64,000 nt of DNA from Vulcanimicrobiota bacterium (lineage in GTDB: Bacteria > Vulcanimicrobiota > Vulcanimicrobiia > Vulcanimicrobiales > Vulcanimicrobiaceae). Shown here in pieces: positions 6,629 to 38,772 of the stretch (position 1 is its first letter; every line of letters starts with the position of its first letter). Position numbers and translations under genes: made by a program. Where the stretch lies: contig PMSI01000001.1 in NCBI GenBank assembly GCA_003168375.1, forward strand, positions 930,001 to 994,000. Reading direction: 5' to 3'. The notes beneath the pieces are model-generated. The model did no database searches. It saw only the letters and a list, made by a program, of their open reading frames with translations, and had not been told where the DNA came from.

Positions 6629-6652
6629 TCTTGCTTGGACTCCGGTCCGGTC

Positions 6653-9322
6653 CTAAAACCGGATCGAGAAGTTCAGGTCTTCGCGATTCTGGTTGAAGTT
6701 GTACGACGGGATCACGTTGTCGCTGTACTTCTGGTTCCGGAAGAGCGCCGAGATCGAGCTCGTCGTCTTCGGGATGTTGTACGTGAGCGTGCCCTGGTAC
6801 TGATCCTTGCGCTGTGCGATGTTCTGGCCGAGCGTGGTCCCGTACGAGCCGTGGAACGTCTGCGTGTTGTAGCCGACGCCCAGCACGAGGTCGCGTGAGA
6901 CCGGCATCGTCGCCGACGCGTCGATCGTGTTGTGGTACTCGTCGAGGTAGTTCGGATAGAACAGCACCGGCGTCGCACCGCCCGCGAGGTAGGCGTTGAG
7001 CGCCGCGCCCGAGGACGGATCCGGACCGCCGACCGTCGGATTGAAGGGAACGTACGCATAAGCGGTCTTGTCGTTGCGGACGAGGTGCTCGAACGAGTCG
7101 CTCACGCTGACGGCCACCCGCGAGCCGAAGACCGGCAGCGAGAACTGCAGGCCGCCCTCGAGCTTGTCGAACGTGAGCTTCTGCGCCGAGGAGAAACCCG
7201 GACCGTACGCCATCTGACCGAACCCGTTCGGAACCATCTCCGAGAGGTGCTGGCCGAGGAAGCGTCCGTTCAGCTTCGTGTCGCCGACGCTGAACGGGAA
7301 GGTGACGTTGGCGGTGAAGCCCTGCGAGTTCGGAGCGAACGCGCTGAAGAACTGCGGACCGCTGGCCACGAACGGGTTGAACACCGGATAGAGGTAGGTG
7401 AGGTTCGCGTTGTTGCGCGTGCACGCGGCACCCGTGCAGCCCGGCGTGACGGCGCCGTCGAACGTCTGGTTGATCGCCAGGTTGTTCGCGAAGCCGTAGA
7501 ACTGCGGGAAGAAGTTCCCCTTCCAGAACTGGAACGTCGCCGGCGCGGGACCGAAGTAGCGGAGCGGGGCGCCGTCGAGGAAGTTCGGGCCCACGGCCTG
7601 GTACTGGATCGTCGCCGTGGCCTGGTAGAGCTTCAGCCGAAGCCCGACAACGACTGCACTGTCGGTGACCGCCGGCGTGTTGTAGAAGTCCGGCGTGAAC
7701 TTGCTGTACGCACCTTCGCCGAACAGCACCGGGTGCTGGGTCTTGTCGCCGCCCATGTTGATGAACGAGATCGGCAGCTGCGCGTCGATTCCGAACACCG
7801 TGTCGCTGACGACACCGAGGCCGTTCCCGGCGGCGTTGCCGTTCGGCGCGGACTGGAAGAACACCGTGTTCTGTGAGTTCGAGACGTCGGCGAAATCGAA
7901 GATGCGGCTCATCGAGACGCCGATCTCGGCGCCCGGCATACCTTTGATCTTCTGGTTGATGCGCATGTTGGCGTGGTAGCGCTGGTACTGATCGTTGTTG
8001 TTGTACGTCAAGCGAACGTAGGTGATCTGCACGACCGTCCCCGCGGGAAGCGGCGTCGTGAAGACGACCTGGTTCGTCGCGTCGATGTAGTACCAGCCGC
8101 CGCCCGCGATCGGGCAGGCGCCGCCGCTCGAGGTGAGCGCCGCGTTGCTGCAGGCCACGCCGTTCACGGCCGAGACGTAGACCGTGCCGAGCACGGCCTT
8201 CGTGGTCAGATAGACCGCCGAGACCACCTGTCCGTTGGCGGTGAACGTATCGGTGCGCGCTGCGCCTGCCGGCGAGTTCGGCGCGCCCGGCTGGAAGTAG
8301 CTCGTCTGCGGACGGGCCACGGTGAAGAAGTAATTGTTGTTCGCGAACTCACCGTTCGGATCGGCGACGCCCGTCAGCGTGTTGATCATCGACTGGTCGA
8401 GGCGCGTCCACGAGAACTGGAACTCGGTGAGGCCGCCCAAGATGCCGCCGATCTCGAAGCCCTTCTCGTACGGCTGGACGGGGTTCTCGTAGCCGGGACC
8501 CTGCTGGGTCGCGTCGGGCGCGCGGTAGGTGAGGCCGAGCCGCGACGACTTGATGTTGTCGAGCTGGCCATCCCGCAGGTAGACGTTGGTGAAGGCGCCG
8601 GCCTTGGCGATGTTCACGACGATGTCCGGCTCGATCGAGTACTTCGCCTGCGGCGTGAACTCGCCGCCGTACTCGTAGTTGATGATGTGGATCGGCAGCG
8701 AGACCGTCAGGTTCTCGTTGATCGTGTACGTGAAGTTGATCTTGTCGTCGAAGCGGATGAGGTTACCCGCACCCGTCTGTTCGAGCGCGCTGTTGTTCGA
8801 CGGCGAGGTCAGGAAGACGTTGACGAACGGATCGATCGCAGCATGCGCGATCGTCTGCGGAACGCCGTAGCGCTGACGGTACGAGTTGTTGTCGAGGATC
8901 GCGCCGTGCAGCTGGATCGACTGCGCGAACTTCGTCCGCTTGTCGAGCGCATCGAGGGCGTCCTCGAGGTTCGTGACACGCACGCCGAGCGAATCCAGCT
9001 CGTCCTTGAGCGCGTCGATGAGCTTCTGGAGCTTGTCGAGGTCCGCTTTCGAGGCGAACCCCGCGCCGTTCGCCTGCAGCTTCGCGATGACGCGTGCGAC
9101 CAGCACCGCCATCTCGTAGCGCGTCAGCGGACGATCGCCCTTGAACTTACCGTCGGGATACCCCTCGACTAAGCCGTCGGCCGCGAGCGACTGGATCGCT
9201 TGATACGCCCAGTGGTTGGCAGGCACGTCCGAAAACGGCGTGGCGGAGGCGCCCTGACCCAACGCCAACAGCGAGCCCAGACTGAAGCCCGCTGCGAGGA
9301 CGAGGGTAGCGAGACGCTTCAT
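6653..9322 (-). CDS. SLH-domain outer-membrane porin (OmpM-like)
   Basis: 889 aa. Signal peptide 1-27 (ends GASA), then one SLH domain (PFSDVPANHWAYQAIQSL, then GYPDGKFKGDRPLTRYEMA, about 30-85). A short coiled coil follows (about 88-122, LQKLIDALKDELDSLGVRV), then a long beta-barrel ending in SIRF; a terminal Phe is the usual BAM recognition signal. Family knowledge: such porins cross the outer membrane and tether it to peptidoglycan or wall polymers through the SLH domain in Terrabacteria diderms that lack Pal/Lpp. There is a strong GGAGGA Shine-Dalgarno 4 bases before the ATG. A 213-base gap separates it from yqgF, so it probably has its own promoter, though I could not place -35/-10 elements. 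Confidence 0.93.
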   Translation of the reverse strand: MKRLATLVLAAGFSLGSLLALGQGASATPFSDVPANHWAYQAIQSLAADGLVEGYPDGKFKGDRPLTRYEMAVLVARVIAKLQANGAGFASKADLDKLQKLIDALKDELDSLGVRVTNLEDALDALDKRTKFAQSIQLHGAILDNNSYRQRYGVPQTIAHAAIDPFVNVFLTSPSNNSALEQTGAGNLIRFDDKINFTYTINENLTVSLPIHIINYEYGGEFTPQAKYSIEPDIVVNIAKAGAFTNVYLRDGQLDNIKSSRLGLTYRAPDATQQGPGYENPVQPYEKGFEIGGILGGLTEFQFSWTRLDQSMINTLTGVADPNGEFANNNYFFTVARPQTSYFQPGAPNSPAGAARTDTFTANGQVVSAVYLTTKAVLGTVYVSAVNGVACSNAALTSSGGACPIAGGGWYYIDATNQVVFTTPLPAGTVVQITYVRLTYNNNDQYQRYHANMRINQKIKGMPGAEIGVSMSRIFDFADVSNSQNTVFFQSAPNGNAAGNGLGVVSDTVFGIDAQLPISFINMGGDKTQHPVLFGEGAYSKFTPDFYNTPAVTDSAVVVGLRLKLYQATATIQYQAVGPNFLDGAPLRYFGPAPATFQFWKGNFFPQFYGFANNLAINQTFDGAVTPGCTGAACTRNNANLTYLYPVFNPFVASGPQFFSAFAPNSQGFTANVTFPFSVGDTKLNGRFLGQHLSEMVPNGFGQMAYGPGFSSAQKLTFDKLEGGLQFSLPVFGSRVAVSVSDSFEHLVRNDKTAYAYVPFNPTVGGPDPSSGAALNAYLAGGATPVLFYPNYLDEYHNTIDASATMPVSRDLVLGVGYNTQTFHGSYGTTLGQNIAQRKDQYQGTLTYNIPKTTSSISALFRNQKYSDNVIPSYNFNQNREDLNFSIRF

Positions 9323-9535
9323 CGTGTCCTCCGAGAAAGATGTGACCTGCTGTTCCGCGCTGACCGCGTCCCGCCTTCGGTTGCCGGGCGATCGGGTGTC
9401 CGTGTTGCCCCTGATCGATTCGGCACCAAGAACCCGTCTCGGATCCTACCGGAACGGGCACAACGAGGACGCGCTCGATACGGAACGCATGCCGAGGTCG
9501 CTATACCGAAGCGAGCGTCAGGACTCCTCCCCGCA

Positions 9536-35009: not shown

Positions 35010-36128
35010 TTACTGACGGAGCGGCATCAGAACATAGAGCTGCTGGCCGGATTCTTCGCCGAGCTCGAGCGGGCGGATCGCGGCCGGTGAGAGCGGGCCA
35101 AGGAACTCGAGCACCGTCTGCGGCGAGTCGACGTGGTTGAGGATCTCGACCAGGTAGCGCGCGTTGAACGCGATCGCAAGATCCTCGCCCGTCTGCTCGA
35201 CTTCGAGCTCTTCGTACGCATTGCCGGTGACATCTGATTTTGCGGTGATCATCAGCGTCTGATTTGCGACCTCGAGCTTGACCATCGAGGCGCGGTCGCC
35301 GGCGACGAGCTCCGCGCGGCGCAGCCCGCCGATCAGACCCTGCGTGTTGACGACGACGCGGCGGTCGAACTTCGCGGGGATCACCTGCTGGTAGTTCGGG
35401 TACTGCCCGTCGACGAGCCGCACGACGATCGACGTCGCGCCGGCGGTGAACTGCAGCTGGTTCGCGTTCGCTCCCAGCGCGGTGATCTCGACCAGCTCGG
35501 CGGTGCCGAGATTGCGCGCGGCTTCGCTGAGCGCGCGCGACGGGACGATGTACTTCGCGGTTCCCTCGATCGCGCGCTCCAGCTTCGAGGTCCAGCGCGC
35601 GAGTCGGTAGCCGTCGGTCGCGACCAGCGTGATGTTGTCGCCGTCGAGCTCGAGCAGCGTTCCCATCAGCACGGCGCCGCGCGCCTCTTCGTTCGACGCG
35701 GCGAAGATCGTAGCGGTGACACCTTCCCGAAAGCGTTTCGCCGGGATCGCGAAGCTCTGCCCTTTTTGGGCGACGGGGAGCGGGGGATACTCGTCGGCCG
35801 GGAGCGCGTGAAAGTCGTAGTTGGAGCGCTCGGCTTTTACCGACGCCCGCGAGGGCGAGCCGGTCAGCTCGAGCAACCCCGCCGGCAAGTTTCCGAGATA
35901 CCCGCTGAACAAGCGAGCCGGCACCGTCACCGAGCCGGGCTCGGTGATCTCGGCCGGGAAGGACTGTTCGAGCGTGAGTTCGAGATCGGTGGCGCGCACG
36001 CGAATCGCACCCTCGTCCGCGCTGAGCAGGACGTTCGACAGGATCGGCACCGTCGTGTGCGCGTTGACGACTTTGCTCGCCGCGCCGACCGCGGACGCGA
36101 TGTCTTTCGTACTACACGTGAACTTCAC
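35010..36128 (-). CDS. dnaN: DNA polymerase III beta sliding clamp
   Basis: 372 aa processivity clamp of three topologically similar domains. KFTCSTKDIASAVGAASKVVN is the start of domain 1, VLMGTLLELDGDNITLVATDGYRLA lies in domain 2, and the tail ends LYVLMPLRQ, the usual clamp C-terminus. GTG start with GGTGG 5 bases upstream. A -10-like TATACT lies about 39 bases upstream (36172-36167). It is separated from dnaA by a 720-base gap holding a pseudogene. Confidence 0.98.
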   Translation of the reverse strand: MKFTCSTKDIASAVGAASKVVNAHTTVPILSNVLLSADEGAIRVRATDLELTLEQSFPAEITEPGSVTVPARLFSGYLGNLPAGLLELTGSPSRASVKAERSNYDFHALPADEYPPLPVAQKGQSFAIPAKRFREGVTATIFAASNEEARGAVLMGTLLELDGDNITLVATDGYRLARWTSKLERAIEGTAKYIVPSRALSEAARNLGTAELVEITALGANANQLQFTAGATSIVVRLVDGQYPNYQQVIPAKFDRRVVVNTQGLIGGLRRAELVAGDRASMVKLEVANQTLMITAKSDVTGNAYEELEVEQTGEDLAIAFNARYLVEILNHVDSPQTVLEFLGPLSPAAIRPLELGEESGQQLYVLMPLRQ

Positions 36129-36478
36129 TGATCCACCGTTTCGAGAACCGTCGCGGTCCGGTCTTTAGTATATAGAAAGAACGTCGTACCAGCAGTAAGG
36201 GCGTGAATAACGGGGACAACTGCCCGACCCCGCCGGTGCCATGGCATCGCGGGCATTTCGGGCTGTGGACGCCGGAGGCCCCGCCTCCACCCAATCCCCC
36301 GACTGCGCGCGCATCCCGTTTTTCCACGGTACTGAACCGGCCCTGTGCCCGGGCTGGGAATAGACGCTGTGTATTCGGAAGGGCGCGCCTCTTTCGCCGC
36401 CCGCCGGAGATGTCGAGGGCGAGGCTAGTCGTACCCGCCCCGCCCTCGAGGTCACCATCCCGCGATCGAGCGGTGCGG
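36129..36478. promoter_or_regulatory. dnaN upstream region: promoter-like -10 and inverted repeats
   Basis: 350 bases without a convincing gene. On the minus strand TATACT (36172-36167) is a good -10 for dnaN; the -35 about 17 bases upstream is poor. There is an inverted repeat TCGAGGGCG/CGCCCTCGA (36413-36421 and 36441-36449) and a small stem GGAGGC/GCCTCC (36274-36288). A minus-strand reading frame through here contains CPRCHGTGG but has no coding character otherwise. Confidence 0.5.
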
Positions 36479-36840
36479 CTAGGTGTTGGTGGTGAACACA
36501 AAGGGTGAAGTGCTCGTGAATCCGTCCAGCACCAGCGTCGTGCCGAAGATCGTGATTCCGTTGTAGTTTCCGCCGGGCCCCGTGAGAAGATCGACGCGAC
36601 CGGTCGCGTGGTCGATGCGACCGAGCCGGCCGTCCAGGGAGTTGACGAACCACAGGTTGTCGTTGGTGTCGACCGTTGCGAAGGTCGTGATCAACGAGCG
36701 GGCGTTCGAGCGTTTAGGCGCGGCACGGCGACGATCTTCACCGTACCGGTCGCGGTGTCGTACCGCTCGACCTCGCTCAGCTTCGTGCCCGTCGTCGAGT
36801 ACTTCGCGGGCCGGCGTGGAGCCGCGCCACTCTAGCGGCG
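36479..36840 (-). pseudogene. Frameshifted beta-propeller (Vgb/NHL-like) gene fragment
   Basis: Two adjacent minus-strand frames together read as one propeller fragment. The first is KLSEVERYDTATGTVKIVAVPR, closing at a TGA (36694-36692). The second, one frame over, is FATVDTNDNLWFVNSLDGRL, GRIDHATGRVDLLTGPGGN and so on to a TAG at 36481-36479. The repeated 'D.ATG.V' and 'NLWF' patterns are those of virginiamycin-B-lyase/NHL propellers. The 5' part is missing: it begins right behind the dnaA stop. No start codon or ribosome-binding site is apparent, so I call it a decayed remnant. Confidence 0.65.
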
Positions 36841-36844
36841 CGGC
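36821..36844. terminator. GC hairpin just after dnaA
   Basis: GCCGCGCC (36821-36828) pairs with GGCGCGGC (36837-36844) around an 8-base loop, 6 bases beyond the dnaA stop on the transcribed strand. There is no U-tract, so any termination effect is uncertain. Confidence 0.4.
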
Positions 36845-36849
36845 CGCGA

Positions 36850-38214
36850 TCACTCGGACTGGATCTGAGCGACCAGCGAACGGATCTTGTTGCGGAACGC
36901 TTCGTCGGCGTCCATCATGTCGGCGATCTTGTCGCGTGCGTACATCGCGGTCGTATGGTCTTTCTTGCCGAACTCTCGCGCGATCTGCGGGAGCGACGCC
37001 CCGGTGAGCTGCCAGGCGATGTACATCGCGATCTGGCGCGGTAGCGTCACGCGCTGATCGCGCCGCTGCGCTTCCATCTCCTTGACCGAGATCGCGTAGC
37101 CCTTCGCGACGCGCTCCTTGATGAGCGGGATCGTCACGCGGTGCATGGGCGCCTGTGCGACGGCGTTCTTCAGCACTTCGGCCGCGAGCTCGACGTTGAT
37201 CGTCGACTTCGTCAGTGAGGCGAACGCGACGACGCGGATCAGCGAGCCTTCGAGCTCGCGGATATTCGACGGGATCACCTTCGCGATGAAGGCCAGCACC
37301 TCGTCGGGGACCGGAACCTTTTCGGTCTCGGCCTTCTTGCGCAGGATCGCTTCGCGAGTCTCGAAGTCCGGCGGCTGGATGTCGGTCAGCAGGCCCCACT
37401 CGAAGCGCGAGCGCAGCCGGTTCTCCAGCGTCTGGATCTCCTTCGGCGGACGATCGCTCGAGATCACGAGCTGCTTCTGCGCCTCGTGAAGCGAGTTGAA
37501 GGTGTGAAAGAACTCTTCCTGAGTCTGCTCCTTGCCTTCGAGGAACTGAATGTCGTCGATTAGCAGCACGTCGACGTGGCGGTACCGGTTGCGGAACTCG
37601 ACGGTCTGGTTGTTCTTGATCGCGATGATGAACTCGTTGGTGAACTTCTCCGACGAGACGTACGCGATGTTCGCGTTCGGATTGCGCTCGAGCACGCGGT
37701 GCCCGATCGCATGCATGAGGTGCGTCTTGCCCAAACCGACGCCGCCGTAGAGGAACAGCGGGTTATAGGCCATCGACGGCGCCTCGGCGACCGCCTGTGC
37801 GGCGGCGTGGGCGAACCGGTTCGAGTTTCCGATGACGAAATCGTCGAACGTGTAGCGCGCGTTGAGGTGACCGACGCGCAGGTCGTCGGTTGCGGCGGGC
37901 TTCGCCGCCGGGGCGACCGAGGTCGCCGGCGTTTGGGTCCCGTTCCCCGGGTCGACGACGACCCGCAACGCGATCTCCGCGCCCAGCAGCTCGTGCAGCA
38001 CCGAGGTGATGTCCGCCTTGAGGCGGTTCTCCACCCAGTCGCGGGCGAACGTGGTCTGCACCGCGAGGACGATCTCCGACGGGGTGAGGTCGACCAGCCG
38101 CATCGGCTTGAGCCACATTTCGAAGACCGGCTTGTTGTAGAGCGGCTCGAGCCGCTCGAGTGCTGCGGTCCAGAGATCTTGTGGTGCTGTAGCCGATGTG
38201 CTGGTCTGATGCAT
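36850..38214 (-). CDS. dnaA: Chromosomal replication initiator DnaA
   Basis: 454 aa. Domain I (LWTAALERLEPLYNKPVFEMWLKPM), a variable linker, then AAA+ domain III from NARYTFDDFVIGNSNRFAHAAA with Walker A GGVGLGKTHLMHAIG and Walker B VLLIDDIQFLEGKEQTQEEFF. DNA-binding domain IV has VTLPRQIAMYIAWQLTGASL and the DnaA signature FGKKDHTTAMYARDKI. I chose ATG at 38214 (MHQTSTSAT...), which gives the normal length; the longer upstream frame would run through the origin. Divergent from rpmH. Confidence 0.97.
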   Translation of the reverse strand: MHQTSTSATAPQDLWTAALERLEPLYNKPVFEMWLKPMRLVDLTPSEIVLAVQTTFARDWVENRLKADITSVLHELLGAEIALRVVVDPGNGTQTPATSVAPAAKPAATDDLRVGHLNARYTFDDFVIGNSNRFAHAAAQAVAEAPSMAYNPLFLYGGVGLGKTHLMHAIGHRVLERNPNANIAYVSSEKFTNEFIIAIKNNQTVEFRNRYRHVDVLLIDDIQFLEGKEQTQEEFFHTFNSLHEAQKQLVISSDRPPKEIQTLENRLRSRFEWGLLTDIQPPDFETREAILRKKAETEKVPVPDEVLAFIAKVIPSNIRELEGSLIRVVAFASLTKSTINVELAAEVLKNAVAQAPMHRVTIPLIKERVAKGYAISVKEMEAQRRDQRVTLPRQIAMYIAWQLTGASLPQIAREFGKKDHTTAMYARDKIADMMDADEAFRNKIRSLVAQIQSE

Positions 38215-38637
38215 GCCGTACCTACCGCATAGTCCGGACCGGCGAGCAGAGCACGCGCCGGGGGAGAATGAGCGATGGGGATTGGCCCGGAGAGGGTCGT
38301 TCCCTGCGGCGTTTTCCCCCGGAGTTGTCCACTTCTCCACAGGGGGGCGGACCGCGTCCCGCCGCGGCTCGTCGCGCGTATCCACGAGTTTCCCGCCCGC
38401 ACGAATGGCGGCAGGAACCCGTGCCGCGCCTGGTTCGGCGGCCACGAGCAACCGGCGCTGTCCACAGGTCTGTCCACCGTTGTGGACAACTTAGGAACCA
38501 TTCTCGGAACGCGAAATTTCCCTTGACGCTGCGGGCAGCGCGCCCGTATACTGTCTTGTCGCACCTGTCGTTCGTGGCCGTCCGCGCCGCGCCGCCTTAG
38601 GGACCGGCAACCCCCGTAGCTCCAGGAGAACTCGCTC
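38215..38637. other. Probable oriC: DnaA-box cluster between dnaA and rpmH
   Basis: Non-coding gap between divergent dnaA and rpmH. DnaA-box-like sequences (consensus TTATCCACA) include TTGTCCACT (38325-38333), TTCTCCACA (38333-38341), GTATCCACG (38378-38386), CTGTCCACA (38458-38466), CTGTCCACC (38470-38478) and, on the minus strand, TTGTCCACA (38489-38481). An AT-richer stretch follows at about 38488-38522, a candidate unwinding element. Gene orientation switches here from minus to plus. The box motif suggests a TTGTCCACA-type preference. Confidence 0.75.
38523..38552 (+). promoter_or_regulatory. Sigma-70-type promoter of rpmH
   Basis: TTGACG (38523-38528), an 18-base spacer and TATACT (38547-38552). 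It is the best promoter match in the window, about 86 bases upstream of the rpmH GTG, and presumably drives rpmH-rnpA-yidD-yidC. Confidence 0.8.
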
Positions 38638-38772
38638 GTGAAGCGGACCTATCAGCCGCATAACCGGCGCCGTAAGCGCGTCCACGGCTTCCTCGAACGT
38701 ATGTCAACGAAGAACGGCCGTCGCGTTCTCGCGGCACGCCGCAAGAAGGGCCGCCACCGCCTGGCCGTCTAG
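38638..38772 (+). CDS. rpmH: 50S ribosomal protein L34
   Basis: 44 aa, too short for most automatic reading-frame lists. It translates as (M)[20 protein letters not shown], then [20 protein letters not shown] and LAV: the complete, highly conserved L34. GTG start with AGGAGA upstream at 38623-38628. Structural protein of the large subunit; it begins the conserved rpmH-rnpA-yidD-yidC origin cluster. Confidence 0.98.

Follow-up and report, generated by a model that had tools for sequence, protein, structure and literature searches.

A probable remnant of a Vgb-like propeller gene between dnaA and dnaN in a Vulcanimicrobiota bacterium

Why a stretch of DNA with the character of a protein-coding gene lies between dnaA and dnaN, close to a putative origin of replication, is the question raised by this locus of a Vulcanimicrobiota bacterium. 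The locus was analyzed within a window of 64,000 nucleotides, to which all coordinates refer unless otherwise given, taken from a genome of 4.43 Mb in 7 contigs. Both flanking genes are intact and lie on the minus strand. The upstream neighbour dnaA (36850-38214) encodes 454 aa and shares 98.9% amino acid identity across 454 aa with the sister-genome locus L009, and the downstream neighbour dnaN (35010-36128) encodes 372 aa. The gap between them (36129-36849) is 721 bp long. A search of genome_contigs with the dnaA C-terminus returned eight loci, seven of which belong to metagenome-assembled "Candidatus Eremiobacterota" or candidate division WPS-2; the name Eremiobacterota/WPS-2 is placed under Vulcanimicrobiota in the NCBI taxonomy.

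The gap was surveyed at dnaA loci from 63 genomes, namely this genome and 62 relatives, and dnaN was found within the first fetched stretch in 62 of them. The exception (locus L089 of G042, a member of another genus) could not be measured in the first survey and was measured separately from a longer stretch. Omitted from the counts were G099, which gave partial dnaA matches only, the second dnaA-like match of G046, and four genomes without a dnaA match at the limits used (G001, G007, G011, and G041). The gap ranges from 205 to 514 bp in 61 relatives, with a median of 281 bp, compared with 721 bp here, which is the second longest among the 63 after that of G042 (about 2.8 kb). The gap of the sister genome, G004, measures 468 bp and is the fourth longest among the 62 first-stretch gaps. 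The original prediction took the dnaA-dnaN gap to be tightly conserved, but given the range among the 61 relatives and the two intact genes that occupy the gap of G042, its length is not tightly conserved within this family.

The coding-like DNA in the gap consists of two pieces on the minus strand that sit in different frames, as was originally described, and together amount to about 110 codons. The 5' piece (36709-36810) carries the coding-like frame PAKYSTTGTKLSEVERYDTATGTVKIVAVPRLNA. The 3' piece (36479-36700) reads SLITTFATVDTNDNLWFVN...SPFVFTTNT-stop from 36697 to 36479 and ends in TAG; its frame is open from inside dnaA down to 36479. Between 36700 and 36709 the assembled sequence changes frame, and the change may reflect either a small indel or a larger deletion that left a scar. 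GC contents at the three codon positions are 0.55/0.52/0.94 in the 5' piece (about 36810-36709) and 0.49/0.49/0.85 in the 3' piece (36700-36479), for comparison with third-position values of 0.89 in dnaA and 0.87 in dnaN, and no such bias is seen in the gap DNA on the dnaN side (36129-36478; 0.68/0.66/0.63). The coding-like part starts about 40 bp past the dnaA stop and not, as first proposed, right at it.

Similarity searches of both translated frames gave different outcomes for the two pieces. The best PDB match of the 3' piece (phmmer) is virginiamycin B lyase, with a whole-sequence E value of 0.00071 over 26 residues and no stretch passing alone; similarity to solved Vgb lyases is therefore present in weak form, at E values of 0.00071 and 0.00083 over 26 to 27 residues. 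The Pfam model Vgb_lyase (PF24684) matched the 3' piece at 14.1 bits (E value of 0.021), below its curated cut-off of 50 bits, and the NCBIfam model TIGR03032 at 17.6 bits (E value of 0.0015) against a cut-off of 251.5 bits. Eight propeller ORFs, of which 6 come from this genome and 2 from relatives, served for comparison; the best score of the 3' piece against them was equalled by none of 500 shuffles of itself and by 3 of 500 pieces taken from open frames of the first 30 kb of the window. Structure prediction for the 3' piece gave a model made entirely of strands, at low confidence (mean pLDDT of 50). On this sequence evidence, the 3' piece is taken as propeller, apparently the last blade and C terminus of a Vgb-like protein. 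The 5' piece did not score above chance against the same 8 ORFs (92 of 500 shuffles did equally well), had no Vgb_lyase match in Pfam (Kelch_3 appeared at an E value of 0.093), and had no match in NCBIfam.

The 5' piece is tied to the 3' piece by its codon bias and by an internal repeat. The repeat reads RYDTATGTV in the 5' piece and RIDHATGRV in the 3' piece, giving the common motif RxDxATGxV, and the two motifs start 146 bp apart, which is close to one blade length; in two sets of 5000 shuffles, 32 and 62 reached the repeat score. The 5' piece is thus probably the preceding blade, and the two pieces are likely, if not proven, to be parts of one frameshifted propeller gene. The claim that both frames are consecutive parts of a single propeller accordingly stands for the 3' piece, whereas the 5' piece has no family match above shuffles. 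Vgb propellers have seven blades, and the remnant does not hold a full propeller in a single open frame. It resembles the Vgb family (PF24684; PDB 2z2n/2z2p) in the blade-like NLWFVN...GRIDxATGxV of the 3' piece, but it differs in comprising about one to two blades with a broken frame, in its sub-threshold scores, and in having no assignable function. Likewise, residues 13 to 57 of the 3' piece show a sub-threshold match to the TIGR03032/DUF4915 proteins, but the remnant falls far under their curated cut-off.

Comparison with G004 shows how the two lineages differ at this site. The two genomes share about 94% DNA identity around it. They align over the first 12 bp past the dnaA stop (36838-36849, minus strand), which form the left junction of a differing segment, and again from 36508 to dnaN. 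The first match, which reaches from dnaA down to 36838 over 63 positions of the query, has 89% identity, and a separate alignment block stops at the same point; the second match has 97% identity. The right junction lies at the last nine codons, SPFVFTTNT (36482-36508, minus strand), which are present in G004 together with the stop. The differing middle comprises 329 bp here (36509-36837) versus 77 unrelated bp in G004, and the latter are also coding-like, with codon-position GC contents of 0.56/0.44/0.84 over 25 codons. None of the seven other members of the genus whose gap could be read carries the shared tail or either middle piece; in these genomes, similarity to this gap, the dnaA end aside, starts at about 36407 or nearer to dnaN. 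At an E value of 1e-6, DNA matching 36395-36830 was found in 2 of 149 phylum genomes, this genome and G004. Such a distribution, with the remnant missing from seven of seven genus members and its tail alone in G004, is consistent with a pseudogene.

The feature is judged to be a genuine, if unremarkable, piece of a decayed gene, and the original prediction described it correctly in part. The best explanation, to which we assign a probability of roughly 0.65, is that a Vgb-like propeller gene was inserted in an ancestor shared by this genome and G004, was trimmed separately in each lineage, and survives here as a non-functional remnant at 36479-36810. A gene or gene piece would have landed on the minus strand just past dnaA and before the origin core in that ancestor, and separate deletions would then have shortened the insert in each lineage. 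This genome would have lost the 5' part and acquired the frame break between 36700 and 36709, and G004 would have kept the last nine codons alone, beside a different short piece. Insertion followed by loss near the origin, as originally proposed, is supported by a gap longer than those of 61 of the 62 measured relatives and by the differing middle of G004. Several findings argue against this explanation. The left junctions of both genomes lie about 12 bp past the dnaA stop, a coincidence that has no explanation under this model. In addition, the 3' piece has no donor or close intact homologue, the 5' piece has no family match, the mean pLDDT is 50, the G004 piece has no identified relative, and the genes of G042 do not match the remnant.

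Independent events at a tolerant site, in which the tail entered once and unrelated scraps were captured separately here and in G004, are an unlikely alternative. They would fit the findings that the middles share nothing and that both start about 12 bp past the dnaA stop, and other genes do occupy the same interval of G042. However, the propeller frame here runs on unbroken through the nine shared codons, and the tail and the 3' piece are for this reason most simply read as one gene. The 77-bp piece of G004 itself was searched against 60 genomes, which gave, besides G004, two weak matches with E values of 0.033 and 0.28. The former lies just upstream of a ribosomal-protein-L3-like gene, named by reading its translation, and its frame overlaps that gene out of phase; the latter lies inside a 74-codon open frame. 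A first impression that the piece was part of an outer-membrane receptor was dropped on these results.

An assembly or sequencing error, either a chimeric join or an indel in a continuous frame, is less probable still. Seven of the eight related dnaA loci come from metagenome assemblies and this genome may be of the same kind, but the tail and the DNA downstream of it recur in a separately assembled genome, and even if the frame break were false, the gap would fit about two blades only. Least credible is a short expressed gene of about 72 codons that would start at a TTG in the 3' piece, or else a frame that happens to be open in GC-rich DNA: the 3' frame is indeed open from within dnaA to 36479, but the sister genome has the tail alone, no close match was found among 149 phylum genomes, a simple scan of 36100-36900 picked out no promoter-like site, and the codon bias and the propeller similarity speak against a chance frame.

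The source of the inserted propeller gene was sought in this genome and beyond. Twelve stretches matching the Vgb family lie at 7 places in this genome, so Vgb-type genes are at hand, but none is close to the remnant. No intact close homologue or donor of the 3' piece was found elsewhere in the genome, where the best match by E value (0.019) has 35% identity. Only distant propellers were found in the genomes of 98 relatives (this genome included), plasmids, genome_contigs, and viral_contigs. Among the 149 phylum genomes, the best matches of the 3' piece besides itself showed 35 to 46% identity over 34 to 47 residues, and a search with the remnant DNA found no intact homologue. Weak DNA matches in G009, G004, and G001 were judged on reading to be chance or unrelated genes. 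Among the titles and abstract openings listed for DnaA-trio origins, Eremiobacterota pseudogenes, and dnaA-dnaN insertions, none refers to the remnant.

The dnaN side of the gap carries what may be the origin itself. A DnaA-box-like sequence, TTATTCACG (36202-36210, minus strand), has one mismatch to TTWTNCACA, a consensus supplied by the analysts, and is a putative part of the origin. A DnaA-trio-like sequence, TACTGCTGGTACGAC (36183-36197, minus strand), with an AT-rich stretch after it, is the putative unwinding site and is intact, 54 bp upstream of dnaN. DnaA boxes and DnaA-trios are separated by a GC-rich spacer, and the order here is TTATTCACG, CCCT, TACTGCTGGTACGAC, and AT-rich DNA (36183-36210), which fits a box, a short spacer, and a trio. 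The DnaA-trio is outlined in the excerpted text of one report as a trinucleotide repeat with the consensus 3'-GAT-5' beside a DnaA box (PMC6669920). A trio-like pattern with two or fewer mismatches, chosen after some of the scored gaps had been viewed, is present in 56 of 62 gaps. Shuffling this gap 2000 times produced the pattern in 5 cases. In 58 of the 62 gaps, the best match lies 43 to 69 bp from dnaN. In loci L035, L041, and L108, the trio-like element is set back from dnaN by 204, 216, and 137 bp, respectively, which places the extra DNA of these three on the dnaN side; in L025, the best trio match has 5 mismatches. Judged by sequence pattern and position, the DnaA box and the trio-like element near dnaN are likely the oriC core of the family. 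The remnant ends about 285 bp from the trio-like element, so the putative origin core looks undamaged.

The long gap of G042 bears on how much DNA this interval can hold. Its dnaN lies about 2.8 kb past dnaA (gap at 6630-9462 of locus L122, G042:C5), and the gap contains two intact open frames on the dnaA strand, of 295 and 505 codons (6751-7638 and 7641-9158), whose translations begin, by eye, like those of secreted or lipoproteins. Neither matches the remnant. The trio-like element of G042 lies at 9394, downstream of the inserted genes, and because two intact genes are held there, whole genes can enter the interval between dnaA and the trio. Translation of the long gaps of L014, L035, L041, and L042 yielded no identified gene scraps; L042 has a 69-codon frame with a third-position GC of 0.83 in the first 207 bases of its 514-bp gap, which may be such a scrap. 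G042 has two intact genes, this genome and G004 have decayed scraps, and the dnaN-side element stays intact. It is conceivable, if doubtful, that in this family genes for secreted proteins, oriented like dnaA, repeatedly land between the dnaA stop and the origin core, and that they always do so before the unwinding site as read from dnaA. In this phylum the interval tolerates several hundred extra bases on the dnaA side, and nearly three thousand in G042, as the putative unwinding element near dnaN stays put, and such tolerance is a help in locating the start of the origin core. IS6110 inserts in the dnaA-dnaN gap of Mycobacterium tuberculosis, according to the excerpted portion of another report (PMC3701491), a likeness in that foreign DNA is tolerated between the two genes; the insert described there is a mobile element, whereas that found here is a decayed protein gene.

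Other elements of the gap were also inspected. A strong hairpin without a T run (36406-36456, minus strand) may terminate transcription of either dnaA or the lost gene, and the region 36395-36470 folds at -46 kcal/mol with a z score of -4.1. A terminator scan found none under the rule built into the scan, no Rfam family matched 35900-38700 at gathering scores, and the gap was negative for direct repeats. A minimum of the cumulative GC skew is usually expected at an origin, which is not the pattern seen here: across positions 1 to 64000 of the window, the cumulative skew climbs up to about 30 kb, stays roughly level over dnaA, and declines beyond about 51 kb.
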